Below are positions 50,667 to 57,011 of a stretch of 64,000 nucleotides of DNA, piece by piece. The translations under genes and the position numbers were made by a program. The notes beneath the pieces are model-generated. The model did no database searches. It was given only the letters and a program-made list of their open reading frames with translations, and was not told the DNA's origin. This DNA is from an uncultured Pelagibacteraceae bacterium. GTDB taxonomy: Bacteria > Pseudomonadota > Alphaproteobacteria > Pelagibacterales > Pelagibacteraceae. Each line of letters begins with the position of its first letter. Positions within the stretch are counted from its first letter, which is position 1. Location: positions 1 to 64,000 of the forward strand of contig CACEMG010000004.1 of the NCBI GenBank assembly GCA_902560565.1. The letters are read 5' to 3'.

Positions 50667-51110
50667 ATGGAAATAGCAGTATTAGCTTGTGGATGCTTTT
50701 GGGGACCTGAAATAAAGTTCAGTAGATTAGACGGTGTTTTTAAAACTGAGGTAGGTTATTGCGGAGGTAACACGAGTAAAACAAGTTATCAAGAAGTTTG
50801 TGAAGGAGATACGAATCATGCTGAAGTTGTTAAATTAGACTTTGATCCAAACATAATTTCATATGAAAAAATTTTAGATTACTTTTTTGAAATACATGAT
50901 CCTACAACCTTAAATTCTCAAGGACCAGACTTTGGTACACAGTATAGAAGTGAAATTTTTTATCTTAATGACGAACAGAAAAATATTGCAAAAAAAATAA
51001 TAGAAAAATACAACAAAAAATATTACGGGAAGGTGGTTACTAAAATTTCACAAATAAAAAATTATTGTATAGCTGAGGAATATCATCAAAAATATCTAGA
51101 AAAAAGATAA
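50667..51110 (+). CDS. msrA: Peptide-methionine (S)-S-oxide reductase MsrA
   Basis: A 147-residue repair enzyme that reduces methionine sulfoxide. The active-site motif is CGCFWGPEIKF (about residues 8-18), and VGYCGG (about 29-34) and YCGGNTSKTSYQEVCEGDTN (quoted in part) follow the family. It is at the short end of MsrA, without an extended N- or C-terminus. It abuts the sulfurtransferase gene with no gap. Confidence 0.95.
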   Translation: MEIAVLACGCFWGPEIKFSRLDGVFKTEVGYCGGNTSKTSYQEVCEGDTNHAEVVKLDFDPNIISYEKILDYFFEIHDPTTLNSQGPDFGTQYRSEIFYLNDEQKNIAKKIIEKYNKKYYGKVVTKISQIKNYCIAEEYHQKYLEKR

Positions 51111-51926
51111 ATGTCTTTAGTAGAAACTACTTGGGTTGAAAATAATTTGAGTAATATAAAATTGATTGATTGTTCTTGGCATCTTCCTAATGCTTCGAGA
51201 AATCCATATCAAGAATATTTGAATCAGCATTTACCAAATGCATTGTTTTTTGATTTAGATAAAAATTCTGATCAGAATACAGAACTACCACATATGTTGC
51301 CGTCTCGTAAAAAGTGGGATGAAATTGTTTCAGGTTTAGGTATAAAAAATGAAGATAGAATTATTGTTTATGATAATTCTGATTTAATCAGCTCCTGCAG
51401 ATTATGGTATACTTTTATCTATTTTGGACATGACCCTAAGCTTGTAAGTGTTATGAATGGTGGCCTTGAAAAATGGCAATCAGAAAAAAGACAGATTACA
51501 AAAGAAGTAATAGTTTTTCCTAAATCGCATTACATATCAAAAGAAAAAAAAGATTTAGTAAAATCAAAGACGCAAATTGAACAAAATATTATTAGTCAGG
51601 AATTTAAAATTCTTGATGCAAGAAGTAAAGAAAGATTTGAGGGTAAAGAAAAAGAGCCAAGAAAAGGTTTAAGAAGTGGATCTATACCAAATTCTTTATG
51701 CTTGCCATTCAAGCAATTAATAGAAAAGGATAAAACATTTAAATCTAAAGAAGAATTGTTAAAAATTTTTAAATCAGTTTTAAAACATGATTTTTCATCA
51801 AAAATTGTGTTTTCATGCGGCTCTGGTGTTACAGCCTCAGTTTTAGCACTTGCATATTCCTTAATTGATAATAAGTATAATCCTGTCATTTATGATGGTT
51901 CATGGTCAGAGTATGGCAAAATATAG
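51111..51926 (+). CDS. Thiosulfate/3-mercaptopyruvate sulfurtransferase
   Basis: A 271-residue protein with two rhodanese domains. The catalytic cysteine is in FSCGSGVTASVLAL (about residue 235); the CG(S/T)GVTA loop is typical of 3-mercaptopyruvate sulfurtransferases (SseA) more than of thiosulfate-specific ones. SWHLPNASRNPYQEYLNQHL and ARSKERFEGKEKEPR are matching blocks in the N-terminal and second domain. It directly follows msrA, suggesting shared sulfur/redox physiology. Confidence 0.92.
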   Translation: MSLVETTWVENNLSNIKLIDCSWHLPNASRNPYQEYLNQHLPNALFFDLDKNSDQNTELPHMLPSRKKWDEIVSGLGIKNEDRIIVYDNSDLISSCRLWYTFIYFGHDPKLVSVMNGGLEKWQSEKRQITKEVIVFPKSHYISKEKKDLVKSKTQIEQNIISQEFKILDARSKERFEGKEKEPRKGLRSGSIPNSLCLPFKQLIEKDKTFKSKEELLKIFKSVLKHDFSSKIVFSCGSGVTASVLALAYSLIDNKYNPVIYDGSWSEYGKI

Positions 51927-51929
51927 TTT

Positions 51930-52799
51930 ATGAAAAATTCAAAAAAAGTTTTAATTGGTGTTGTAATTTTTTTTATAATAATTGCAATTGTTGTAATTGG
52001 AAGAACAATGGTTGGAAACCATTTCAAAAAAAAATTTAGCAAAAGACCACCTCCTGGAATTATTGTCAAATTAGTTTCTGAAAAAGCCTTCTCAGAGAGA
52101 ATCGAAAGTTTTGGCACTGCAATTTCAAAAAAAACAAAATCTTATCGGATTCAAAAAAGTGACTTAATTTCAGAACTAAAATTAGATAATTATGTAGAAA
52201 AAGGATCTTTAATAGTCAAATTGAAGGACAAAGATATTATTGCACCATTTAGTGGTATTCTAGGTTATAGAGGCATTACAGAAGATGTCCTAGGATCAGA
52301 CAATTCTCTCATTATAACTTTAGATGATAGTTCGGTAATTTACGCCGATTTAAAAATACCTGAATCTTTTGCGCCAGTTATTAAAAAAAATTTGCCGGTA
52401 GATGTAAAGTTTTCAGGACTAAAAAACAAAATTTTTTCTGGAAAAGTGGAAGGTTATTCAAGTAGAATCAGTGCAGATACAAGAAGTTTATTAACGAGGA
52501 TTAAAATAGATAACAAAGATTATGAATTAATACCAGGTTCACTACTTGAAGTAAGTGTGAAATTTAATGAAAGAAATTCTCTCTCAGTTCCTGACACAAG
52601 TGTGATGCTAGAGGGAGAAAGCTCTTTTGTATATAGAGTGCTTGATGATAATAGTTTAGAAAAAACTCAAATCCAAATTGGAAATAGAGATGAAGGATTT
52701 ATAGAGGTAATTTCAGGATTAAATGAGGGTGATCTAATTGTTGCAGAAGGTCTAAAAAAAGTAAATCCAAAAGGAAAAATTAAACCAATTAAAAAATAA
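51930..52799 (+). CDS. RND efflux periplasmic adaptor lacking the alpha-hairpin
   Basis: A 289-residue membrane fusion protein. Residues about 8-25 are a membrane anchor. The first lipoyl half-motif (about 76-99, ending EKGSLIVKLKD) is joined directly to the second (about 102-114, starting IIAPFSGILGYRG). In ordinary adaptors 60-70 or more residues of coiled-coil hairpin lie between. The beta-barrel domain (about 136-210) and membrane-proximal domain (about 215-289) are present. Its stop (TAA) is immediately followed by the permease ATG, so the two form a unit. With no hairpin, docking to a TolC-type duct must differ. Confidence 0.9.
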   Translation: MKNSKKVLIGVVIFFIIIAIVVIGRTMVGNHFKKKFSKRPPPGIIVKLVSEKAFSERIESFGTAISKKTKSYRIQKSDLISELKLDNYVEKGSLIVKLKDKDIIAPFSGILGYRGITEDVLGSDNSLIITLDDSSVIYADLKIPESFAPVIKKNLPVDVKFSGLKNKIFSGKVEGYSSRISADTRSLLTRIKIDNKDYELIPGSLLEVSVKFNERNSLSVPDTSVMLEGESSFVYRVLDDNSLEKTQIQIGNRDEGFIEVISGLNEGDLIVAEGLKKVNPKGKIKPIKK

Positions 52800-55700
52800 A
52801 TGTTTATAACTGATTTAAGTATAAGAAGGCCGGTAGTCTCTTGGGTAATGTCTCTTATATTGGTTTTATTTGGCATATTTGTATTTTGGAAATTGCCTGT
52901 AAGAGAATTACCATCAGGTCTTCAGCCACCAGTTGTTCAGATAAAAGTGGATTACAAATCAGCATCAGCACCGATAATTGATCAAGAGGTTACTCAAGTT
53001 TTAGAAGATGTAATTGGTGGAGCAGAAGGTATTAAAAATATTGACTCAGTGTCTGAAAATGGAAGGAGTACAATTAGTATTGAGTTTGATACAGAAATGG
53101 ATTTAGACAATGCTGCAAATGATATACGAGAAAGAGTAGCTAGAGTTGCAGATAATTTACCCAATGAGGCAGAGGCTCCACAAATATTAAAACAGGCTGC
53201 GGGTTTTACGACAACTATGTGGATAGCGCTTTCTTCTCCCTCATGGAGTGATTTGGAATTGGGAGATTACGCAGAGAGATATTTAGTTGATAGATTTTCA
53301 AGTATTAAAAATGTTGGAAGAATTTTAGTAGGTGGTCTAAGGGAATTAAGTGTCAGGATTTGGATAGATCCAATAAAATTAGCTGCTAATGATTTAACCA
53401 TTCAAGAATTAGAAAATGCACTCAGAAGCGAAAATGTTAGTCTTCCAGCTGGAACTTTAGAAGCAACTAATGTTGATCTTACTCTAAATCTAGACAAATC
53501 TTATACAACTATTGACCAACTAAAAAGCTTGCCCTTAAAAAAGAACAAAGACAACATAGTAAAATTGTCTGATGTTGCTGAGGTTGAATTTGGCCCTGTT
53601 TCAGAAAAAACATTATTTAAGGCACAAAGAAAAGATAATCTTAACTTAAAAACAGTAGGTATAGGTATTTATGCTAGAAGTGGGGCATCAACTGTCGAAC
53701 TGTCAAAAGATATCAAAAAAAAGCTAAAAGAAGTTAGAAAGTCTTTGCCGAATGGATTAAATATAGAAGTTGCATTTAATAGAGCAAACTATGTCGGAGC
53801 AGCAATTAATGAAGTATACAAAACTCTTTTCATAGCTTTTATATTAGTAGTAATCATTATTTATTTGTTTCTTGGAAATTTAAAAGCAGTGATAGTACCA
53901 GCAGTTGCGCTTCCCGTTAGTCTAATCGCATCTTTTTTAGGAATTTATATTTTTGATCTATCAATAAATATATTTGTTCTTTTGTCTTTTATTTTAGCTA
54001 TTGGAATAATTACAGATGACTCGGTCATTATGACAGACGCAATTTATAGAAGAATTGAAAATGGTGAAAAACCCCTTGTAGCAGCTTATAGAGGATCAAA
54101 GCAAATAACATTTGCAATTATTGCAACTACTCTGATATTGGTTGCAGTATTTTTACCGCTAATTTTCATAAAGGGAATTTCTGGAACCTTATTCAGAGAA
54201 ACCGCGATTGCATTATCTTTTTCTGTAGTTATTTCATCGTTTGTTGCACTAACCTTATCTCCAATGCTTGGAAGTAGATTTTTAACACTAAAAACTAAAC
54301 AAAATAAAATTATAAGTAAATTTAATTATTTTTTTAAATCATTTCTAAAATTTTATAAAGAAAGTCTTAATTATTTTCTCGATAAACAAAGACTAATAAT
54401 TTCATTTATGATTTTAGTAATTATTTCTTCAGTATTATTATTTAATTTTTCAAAAAAGGAACTGCTTCCTCTTGAAGATAGGGGGGCATATTTGGTAATC
54501 GGAATGACTGACGAAGGAAGCTCATTTGAGTACACGCAAGAAAGAGCACAAGAAATAGAGTCTAAATTAATTCCTCTATTGCAGGAAGAAAATAGCCCGT
54601 ATAGAAGATTTATAATGCGAGTTCCAGGTTTTGGTAGATCAAGTAATTCGTTTAATACTTTTATAATAATAGCTTTACTTAATCATTGGGATGATAGAAG
54701 TAAAAATACACAATCAGTTATGAGAGAAGCTATAGGAAAAATAGTAACTAATCCACAAGCGATTGCTTTTCCTATTTCACCACAATCAATAAGAGTTTCA
54801 AATTATAACAAACCAGTTCAAATGGTAATTTTAGGATCATCTTATGAGGAACTTGAGCAAATTCAGAATAACTTAATATCGGAATTAAGAAAAAATAAAA
54901 ATTTGTCAAGAATTGAGTCAGATTATTCTAAAAATAAACCAGAGGTAAAATTAATTATCAACAAAAATAAAGCAAAAGATTTAGGGATATCAACAGACCA
55001 AATAGGCAAGACTTTGGAAACTCTTTATGGTGGAAAAACTGTTACAACGTTTAATAAACTTGGAAAAGAATATCCAATTATAGTACAAAAATATTTGTCA
55101 GATAGAAGAAGTAAAGAAAGTTTAGCAAAAATTTTTGTAAGATCTGAAAATAGCTCAAAACTTATATCACTGGCAAATTTAGTTGATTTTAAGGAAGAAG
55201 GATCAGCCAAAATTCTTTCAAGATATAACAGACAAAGAGCAGTAACTATATCTGCTAATATAAACGAAGGATATTCATTAAGTGAAGCAATAAGATATTT
55301 AGAAAAAACTATGGAAAATGTTTCACCCCAGAATCAGATTTCCTGGAAGGGAAAATCTGAAGAGTTAAAAGAAACCTCAAATGAATTGTTTATAATATTT
55401 GCTTTAGCATTAATAACTGCTTATTTAGTTATGGCAGCTACTTTTAACTCATTTATTCACCCATTTATAATAATAATGACTGTCCCGCTAGCTGTATTTG
55501 GTGGATTGGTTTTCATTCTTTTTTTAAATAGTTCAATCAATATTTTTTCACAAATTGCTCTTGTTATTCTCATTGGTATATCTACAAAAAATAGTATCTT
55601 AATTGTAGATTTTGCAAATCAACTTAGAGCATCTGGAAAAAATATTGATAATGCAATAAAGGAGGCGTGCGATATGAGATTCAGACCTATTATAATGACA

Positions 55701-55922
55701 TCTCTTAGTACAATGATAGCAATGGTTCCTTTAGTAATTGGAAATATTGGACCTGGGGCCGGTGAAGGCTCTAGACTTGCTGTTGGGTCTACTATTTTAG
55801 GAGGTATGATTATATCAACATTTTTTACACTATATGTAACTCCAACCATGTACTTGATGTTAGCAAAGAATACTAAACGAATTGATGCTATTGATATTGA
55901 ATTAAAGAAGCAACTTAATTAA
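52800..55922 (+). CDS. RND efflux permease (HAE1-like)
   Basis: A 1040-residue inner-membrane proton-driven transporter with 12 helices and two large periplasmic loops. The proton relay is in IGIITDDSVIMTDAI (DD in helix 4, about residues 405-420) and the lysine of ISTKNSILIVDFA (helix 10, about 925-937). The N-terminus MFITDLSIRRPVVSWVMSLIL (quoted in part) is typical of the HAE1 group. No outer-membrane factor gene is in the operon or window. Substrate unknown. Confidence 0.95.
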   Translation: MFITDLSIRRPVVSWVMSLILVLFGIFVFWKLPVRELPSGLQPPVVQIKVDYKSASAPIIDQEVTQVLEDVIGGAEGIKNIDSVSENGRSTISIEFDTEMDLDNAANDIRERVARVADNLPNEAEAPQILKQAAGFTTTMWIALSSPSWSDLELGDYAERYLVDRFSSIKNVGRILVGGLRELSVRIWIDPIKLAANDLTIQELENALRSENVSLPAGTLEATNVDLTLNLDKSYTTIDQLKSLPLKKNKDNIVKLSDVAEVEFGPVSEKTLFKAQRKDNLNLKTVGIGIYARSGASTVELSKDIKKKLKEVRKSLPNGLNIEVAFNRANYVGAAINEVYKTLFIAFILVVIIIYLFLGNLKAVIVPAVALPVSLIASFLGIYIFDLSINIFVLLSFILAIGIITDDSVIMTDAIYRRIENGEKPLVAAYRGSKQITFAIIATTLILVAVFLPLIFIKGISGTLFRETAIALSFSVVISSFVALTLSPMLGSRFLTLKTKQNKIISKFNYFFKSFLKFYKESLNYFLDKQRLIISFMILVIISSVLLFNFSKKELLPLEDRGAYLVIGMTDEGSSFEYTQERAQEIESKLIPLLQEENSPYRRFIMRVPGFGRSSNSFNTFIIIALLNHWDDRSKNTQSVMREAIGKIVTNPQAIAFPISPQSIRVSNYNKPVQMVILGSSYEELEQIQNNLISELRKNKNLSRIESDYSKNKPEVKLIINKNKAKDLGISTDQIGKTLETLYGGKTVTTFNKLGKEYPIIVQKYLSDRRSKESLAKIFVRSENSSKLISLANLVDFKEEGSAKILSRYNRQRAVTISANINEGYSLSEAIRYLEKTMENVSPQNQISWKGKSEELKETSNELFIIFALALITAYLVMAATFNSFIHPFIIIMTVPLAVFGGLVFILFLNSSINIFSQIALVILIGISTKNSILIVDFANQLRASGKNIDNAIKEACDMRFRPIIMTSLSTMIAMVPLVIGNIGPGAGEGSRLAVGSTILGGMIISTFFTLYVTPTMYLMLAKNTKRIDAIDIELKKQLN

Positions 55923-56518
55923 AAAATAATATATTTTCTTGTTTTAAGAGAATTTTGGCAACTTAACAATTGTGATTTATATTTTTTAGACTGTGTTTGT
56001 ACCTTCTTGGCTAAAGATATAACTTTTGAATTTTTTTTATAGTTTTTATAGTTTCCCCAACCCTCATGATAAGCAATATACTGTCTAAATGCATCTTTTT
56101 TTGAAATTTTTAATATTTTTTCGGTTTTATTGATGTACCATCCTATAAAATCTACACTATCTTTGAATCTAGTCCTTGTTGCCAAAGGATTGTTTGTTTC
56201 TTGTTTATATTGTTTCCATGTTCCTTTAACTGCTTGAGAATATCCAAAGGATGATGATGGTCTTTTATAAGGAATAACTTTGAAAATTTTATTTCTTTTT
56301 GGTTTTGCAAGCCAGTCAAAATTAGACTCCATTTTAATAATAGCAAGCTGTAAGTATATTGGAGTTCCCCATTTTTTTTCAGTATTTTTCGCATGCTTGT
56401 ACCAAAGATATCTTTCAGAAAATATGGAACAACCATCTGCAGTATTTTTAGGAATAGATGAGCAAGAAAAAAGAAATAAACAGAGCACTAAAATTAAAAT
56501 ATTATTTTTTTTTTTCAT
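55919..56518 (-). CDS. Lytic transglycosylase-like lipoprotein (SLT fold)
   Basis: A 199-residue lipoprotein. MKKKNNILILVLCLFLFSCSS is a lipobox signal peptide, so I use the ATG at 56518 rather than the track start at 56545. The catalytic glutamate is in IIKMESNFDWLAKP (about residue 64), and SSFGYSQAVKGTWKQY (about 88-103) is the GYSQ motif of SLT enzymes. YHEGWGNYKN comes near the end. It probably cleaves peptidoglycan in the periplasm. It overlaps the nuclease gene by 17 bases. Confidence 0.88.
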   Translation of the reverse strand: MKKKNNILILVLCLFLFSCSSIPKNTADGCSIFSERYLWYKHAKNTEKKWGTPIYLQLAIIKMESNFDWLAKPKRNKIFKVIPYKRPSSSFGYSQAVKGTWKQYKQETNNPLATRTRFKDSVDFIGWYINKTEKILKISKKDAFRQYIAYHEGWGNYKNYKKNSKVISLAKKVQTQSKKYKSQLLSCQNSLKTRKYIIF

Positions 56519-57011
56519 TTTTTCTCCAATTCCATGGTTTTTCAAATGTACCCTGCCATAAACCTAATTTATCTCTTGCTGCCTCTTTTTCTTGAAGAAT
56601 ATATTTTTTTGAGTACCTAACATAAGCTAAGGCATGTCCATTTCTAACAAGCCAAGAATTAATATTTAATTTATTCTTATAACAAGTTGCAAGCTTCCTT
56701 TTGTATCTATCTACATTTTCTATTTTACATAATATTAACTCGTTTTTTAATAATTTTTTCAGTTTTTTTGTAGAGATTTTCCCGCATGGGTATTTTTTAT
56801 GAAAAGATAAAAATTGAATGCTTAGAAAAATCTTTTTACATGATTGGTTTGTCTCAGGTGCATCAATACCAGATAATCTAATTTTGTTATTTTTAATTTT
56901 AATTGTATCACCATCAATCACTAAAGCCCTTCCTTCAATTACTTCAGCATAAGCATTGAGCGAGACAAAAAATAATAAAAGTAAAAAAACTTTAAATTTT
57001 TTTTTTAACAT
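56502..57011 (-). CDS. Secreted thermonuclease-like protein (SNase fold)
   Basis: A 169-residue exported nuclease with signal peptide MLKKKFKVFLLLLFFVSLNAYA. The OB-fold active site is VIDGDTIKIKNNKIRLSGID (quoted in part; Asp about 36 and Arg about 47), with DAPETNQ after it and YKRKLATCY (about 105-113) as the second arginine region. It probably degrades nucleic acids in the periplasm, which could serve phosphorus or purine scavenging. It overlaps the VanZ gene by 20 bases and the transglycosylase gene by 17. Confidence 0.92.
   Translation of the reverse strand: MLKKKFKVFLLLLFFVSLNAYAEVIEGRALVIDGDTIKIKNNKIRLSGIDAPETNQSCKKIFLSIQFLSFHKKYPCGKISTKKLKKLLKNELILCKIENVDRYKRKLATCYKNKLNINSWLVRNGHALAYVRYSKKYILQEKEAARDKLGLWQGTFEKPWNWRKNEKKK

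Follow-up and report, generated by a model that had tools for sequence, protein, structure and literature searches.

The locus raises the question of how an RND efflux pump could reach the outer membrane when its periplasmic adaptor lacks an alpha-helical hairpin. In current models of tripartite pumps, the hairpin of the adaptor bridges to TolC and also opens it. The stretch of DNA analysed here (the window, 64,000 nucleotides from an uncultured Pelagibacteraceae bacterium) encodes an adaptor (Table 1) for which a sequence-only reading had claimed that the two lipoyl halves run straight together with no hairpin between them. From this it had concluded that the pump either docks to its partner in a different way or works without one, moving lipids or substrates within the periplasm.

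Table 1. Features of the adaptor locus, in positions of the window
Feature	Positions	Strand	Remarks
Peptide methionine sulfoxide reductase (msrA)	50667..51110	+	conserved neighbour
Rhodanese-domain protein (sseA-like)	51111..51926	+	conserved neighbour; gap of 3 bases to the adaptor
Hairpin-less RND periplasmic adaptor, 289 aa	51930..52799	+	N-terminal membrane helix (model residues 2-34), without Cys lipobox
Junction between the two lipoyl halves (residues 96-107)	52215..52250	+	site of the 61-residue hairpin in orthologues
HAE-1 RND permease (ACR_tran), 1040 aa	52800..55922	+	starts directly after the adaptor stop codon

Translation of the open reading frame gave the length of 289 residues stated before, and residues 95-109 (IVKLKDKDIIAPFSG) hold no coiled coil between the lipoyl halves. 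In profile searches, TIGR01730 (RND_mfp) matched the adaptor with 137.3 bits, above its curated cut-off of 94.9 (E 5.5e-40, residues 96-286), and the match starts only at model position 130 of 322, which is the start of the second lipoyl half. In Pfam, HlyD_D23 covers the protein from residue 102 on, and the gene directly downstream encodes an RND permease (ACR_tran, 7.1e-260). The hairpin between lipoyl halves that marks the canonical AcrA/MexA adaptors is absent, and the short link of the BesA type is present, with about 0-3 residues. An AlphaFold2 model built from 19 sequences (mean pLDDT 81.6, and 89-92 in the junction blocks) predicts strands E94-98 and E102-104 joined by a turn at 99-101, with no helix between them. 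The only helices of the model are the membrane anchor (2-34) and H145-150, so that a hairpin inserted elsewhere in the adaptor was also rejected. The absence of the hairpin is therefore borne out by the translation, the family alignments and the model.

An assembly error or an in-frame deletion at the junction, as the earlier reading had itself allowed, or a degraded adaptor would be the simplest objection, and we give it practically no weight. Of 146 genomes from the family, 134 have a homologue of the adaptor with the same size, nearly always as a full-length match, and these include every one of the 52 good-quality genomes; the named loci come, with few exceptions, from SAR11 (uncultured Pelagibacteraceae). 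In a further sample drawn from the order, one 94%-complete genome belonging to the genus gave no adaptor match. The junction is free of insertion in 19 aligned homologues, which share 70 invariant columns, and 106 SAR11 ORFs with the same junction align to the SAR11 profile in one piece, continuous across it. Conservation throughout the family refutes an assembly error, in favour of which nothing was found; the gap is real and old. SAR11-type adaptors also turned up under two other labels. A contig filed under Candidatus Neomarinimicrobiota (L066, NZRW01000024.1) carries one with 71% identity to that of the window, probably through a binning error, and G377 (locus L125; also G377:C3:190-1056), which is classified in a different family within the class, holds two full-length copies that are probably contamination.

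In the alphaproteobacterial relatives, the match to the SAR11 profile is broken into two parts by an insert of 61 residues (24 of 25 sequences) or 75 (the remaining one), and this insert falls at the very place where the lipoyl halves of the SAR11 protein meet. Among relatives drawn from the phylum the insert measures 61 residues (26/28) or 62 (2/28). When all are aligned together, AcrA of E. coli has 77 residues more than the window's adaptor at the junction, and the relatives have 63 more; since two of these residues are an unrelated indel, the scale is that of the published hairpins, 61 residues in MexA and 75 in AcrA (PMC2279261). The hairpins of the relatives carry the R-x3-L part (R27 nearly invariant, L31 invariant) of the RLS motif, a known TolC-recognition motif of adaptor hairpins (PMC4446572). 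The orthologous adaptors (L127-L152), of the MexA/AcrA-type HAE-1 systems, have the same domain order and two-gene adaptor-permease layout as SAR11, and their permeases are orthologous to the SAR11 permease (695-905 bits); they differ in having at the junction a hairpin of 61 (MexA class) or 75 residues (AcrA class), where SAR11 has none. In the sister family of the order (L105-L109), an RND adaptor also lies beside a permease, but this adaptor has 357 residues with a hairpin as against 289 without, and the permease is so distant from that of SAR11 (about 200 bits) that it belongs to a different pump. Thus, the SAR11 pump seems not to be common to both families of the order.

In a permease tree, all 14 SAR11 pumps form one group nested within hairpin-bearing orthologues with support of 100/100 (AcrB forms a long branch, and the rooting serves for drawing only). 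Since the SAR11 permeases are nested in this way, a single loss on the branch leading to the SAR11 family is the most economical history, and the sequences suggest that a MexA-type hairpin of 61 residues was probably lost once there. When other hairpin-less adaptors were sought among 349 genomes of the phylum, no full-coverage match to the SAR11 adaptor profile was found outside SAR11, a search that distant adaptors would escape; one partial match (48-284) occurred in G469.

The permease is a complete HAE-1 protein of the AcrB type; D407, D408, K940, R971 and T978 (AcrB numbering) are kept in all aligned sequences, and both TolC-docking hairpins are conserved as in hairpin-bearing orthologues. 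A full permease with proton relay and docking hairpins speaks against the proposal that the pump moves lipids in the periplasm without a partner. As a change compensating for the lost hairpin we considered the AcrB intermonomer loop, which is 6 residues shorter; this shortening is common to hairpin-bearing orthologues and is therefore not linked to the loss. The permease adjoins the adaptor in 29 of 29 wide loci, and the sseA-like gene is probably in the same operon. The order msrA-sseA-adaptor-permease, followed by a convergent SLT_4 lytic transglycosylase gene, is conserved in all 29 wide SAR11 loci, and the five genes (50667-56545 in the window) are linked across SAR11 genera. The msrA-sseA-SLT_4 neighbourhood points to no clear substrate.

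As the sequence-only reading had stated, no outer-membrane factor is encoded nearby. Profile searches, on which our genome-wide statements are based, found a single TolC-type gene in the genome of the window (432 aa, contig C8), unlinked to the pump and with no transporter beside it within the 3.6 kb read on that contig. The same genome, 82% complete, has one RND adaptor and one ACR_tran permease. An OEP protein is present in 51 of 52 good family genomes, which weakens the view that the pump has no partner. Few of 60 family genomes have another adaptor: adaptor-like further matches occur in G048, G010, G026 and G043, and the remaining extra matches are mostly short ones inside long ORFs, probably of other lipoyl or biotinyl proteins. 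Type-I HlyD gave no match over the cut-off in the family genomes searched. Second adaptor regions with extra OEP matches lie at G026:C1:917782-919577 and G043:C1:1022913-1026663. In both, the first match contains a single in-frame TGA; they may be another export system or a gene that has been split.

Because a streamlined genome keeps TolC together with a window-type adaptor as its usual sole adaptor, we infer that TolC and the pump work together. It has to be considered that TolC may serve something else, and that adaptor and permease by themselves carry substrates into the periplasm from the cytoplasmic or inner-membrane side, or from one envelope site to another. The hairpin is the main TolC-binding part, bearing the R-x3-L motif in orthologues, and its absence would fit such a pump, as would the unlinked TolC gene. 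Nevertheless, a single unlinked TolC also occurs in hairpin-bearing genomes (e.g., G355), the docking tips of the permease are conserved, and TolC is retained in nearly every good genome of this streamlined family, most of which have no other adaptor; we thus consider the partner-free pump unlikely. Of the two options first proposed, the one on docking is right in that any docking would have to differ from that of AcrA/MacA, and the partner-free one has gained no positive support. It is also rather improbable that the pump has a fourth part, an unrecognised protein that provides a hairpin or another bridge in trans. The authors of the BesA work could not exclude an extra factor in Borrelia (PMC3807786), and YbjP is described as an example of extra TolC-binding lipoproteins. 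Against this, most SAR11 genomes have no second adaptor, and of 13 SAR11 genomes searched for a MexA-type hairpin encoded elsewhere, 12 had none and G043 had one in its extra adaptor region; the same search detected the hairpin in all three hairpin-bearing control genomes (G355, G401 and G307), and a bridge of unrelated sequence would escape it.

The SAR11 TolC proteins (residues in E. coli mature numbering) keep the gate residues D153 (37/37), Y362 (36/36) and R367 (35/36), and have D or E at position 371. D374, the second aspartate of the entrance ring, is replaced in 36 of 36 readable sequences (Q 21, N 8, T 4, S 3); by contrast, 11 of the 14 OMFs that served as controls, taken from hairpin-bearing genomes as putative partners of the adaptors there, have D374. 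A longer TolC barrel that would compensate for the hairpin was not seen, the barrel segments of SAR11 mostly being equal in length to those in OMFs of hairpin-bearing genomes; segment 368-425 counts 48-49 in some sequences of both groups, which probably reflects the alignment. SAR11-specific changes, counted by eye, affect 11 of 45 conserved columns in the tip and 11 of 75 elsewhere, which is no convincing enrichment.

We hypothesize that a collar of adaptors, anchored by their N-terminal membrane helix, surrounds the permease trimer and that the single unlinked TolC would contact the permease funnel and this lipoyl collar directly, tip to tip, so that the AcrA-type coiled-coil tube could be dispensed with. 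A TolC entrance in which D374 is replaced may need less help to open. Taken as a whole, the explanation that the window encodes a BesA-type adaptor of an AcrB-like RND pump with direct TolC docking appears to us probable, though by no means secure; the unlinked tolC and the intact D153, Y362 and R367, unlike BesC, count against direct docking. In the tip-to-tip models of AcrAB-TolC it is the adaptor hairpins, not the permease, that touch TolC, and an assembly of the BesA type was called fully incompatible with them (PMC4446572).

The literature on SAR11 RND adaptors, as covered by titles and abstracts, yielded no paper on the window's adaptor. What is new is that the hairpin-less trait spans an abundant marine clade, with a link shorter than that of BesA, and that D374 is missing from every readable SAR11 TolC as it is in BesC. 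That SAR11 adaptors are a new clade of hairpin-less adaptors is well supported, and direct docking to TolC would be the most likely arrangement. Borrelia BesA has been the one solved exception to the models in which the hairpin forms the bridge; SAR11 offers a second, apparently independent loss, fixed across a clade and with hairpin-bearing orthologues as controls, so that the dispensability of the hairpin becomes testable by comparing matched pumps with a difference of about 61 residues. A wider proposal is tentative and, in our view, rather doubtful: that in this clade, with its usual sole RND adaptor hairpin-less and its permease in direct contact with TolC, the OMF lost its second ring aspartate in step with the hairpin, as in Borrelia. 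If true, two lineages would have lost this aspartate together with the hairpin whose task was to unlock the entrance ring.

The hairpin-less kind of adaptor was already known, since BesA of the Borrelia burgdorferi BesABC pump has been crystallised (PDB 4KKS, 4KKT, 4KKU) and its authors mentioned that sequences like it occur in further spirochaetes and, in rare cases, in proteobacteria, for example Legionella (PMC3807786). This precedent (PMC3807786, PMC2279261) was missing from the sequence-only reading. In a Foldseek search with the AlphaFold2 model, the top PDB match was BesA 4KKU (E 5.1e-15, 257 columns over the 266-residue target, TM 0.60/0.65, 0.65 by target, rmsd 4.9), just ahead of a TMexC chain and then CusB, MexA and AcrA, and the remaining domains of the window's adaptor share the BesA fold. 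Both are RND adaptors in which the hairpin is wholly absent, but the link in BesA is a nine-residue loop (PMC3807786), and BesA is lipidated at Cys26, whereas the SAR11 protein has an N-terminal membrane helix and no Cys. Furthermore, besC lies inside the Borrelia operon, while the SAR11 tolC is unlinked. Since the SAR11 adaptor profile does not retrieve BesA at E <= 10 and the SAR11 pump is nested among hairpin-bearing alphaproteobacterial pumps (in a tree without BesB), these sequence comparisons indicate that the SAR11 loss is probably independent of, and convergent with, that of Borrelia. BesC has D363 and K366 at the two positions of its entrance ring and lacks the D153-Y362-R367 network (PMC2279261), and reviews tie its weak gates to the missing hairpin. 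BesC and SAR11 TolC are thus both without the second entrance-ring aspartate (K366 in BesC, PMC2279261), but the primary gate network lost in BesC is intact in SAR11, and the parallel is only partial; at one event per lineage, on a stem in SAR11, the shared loss is suggestive. A direct meeting with TolC has been proposed for BesABC too, and it is likewise the arrangement that we prefer for the SAR11 pump.
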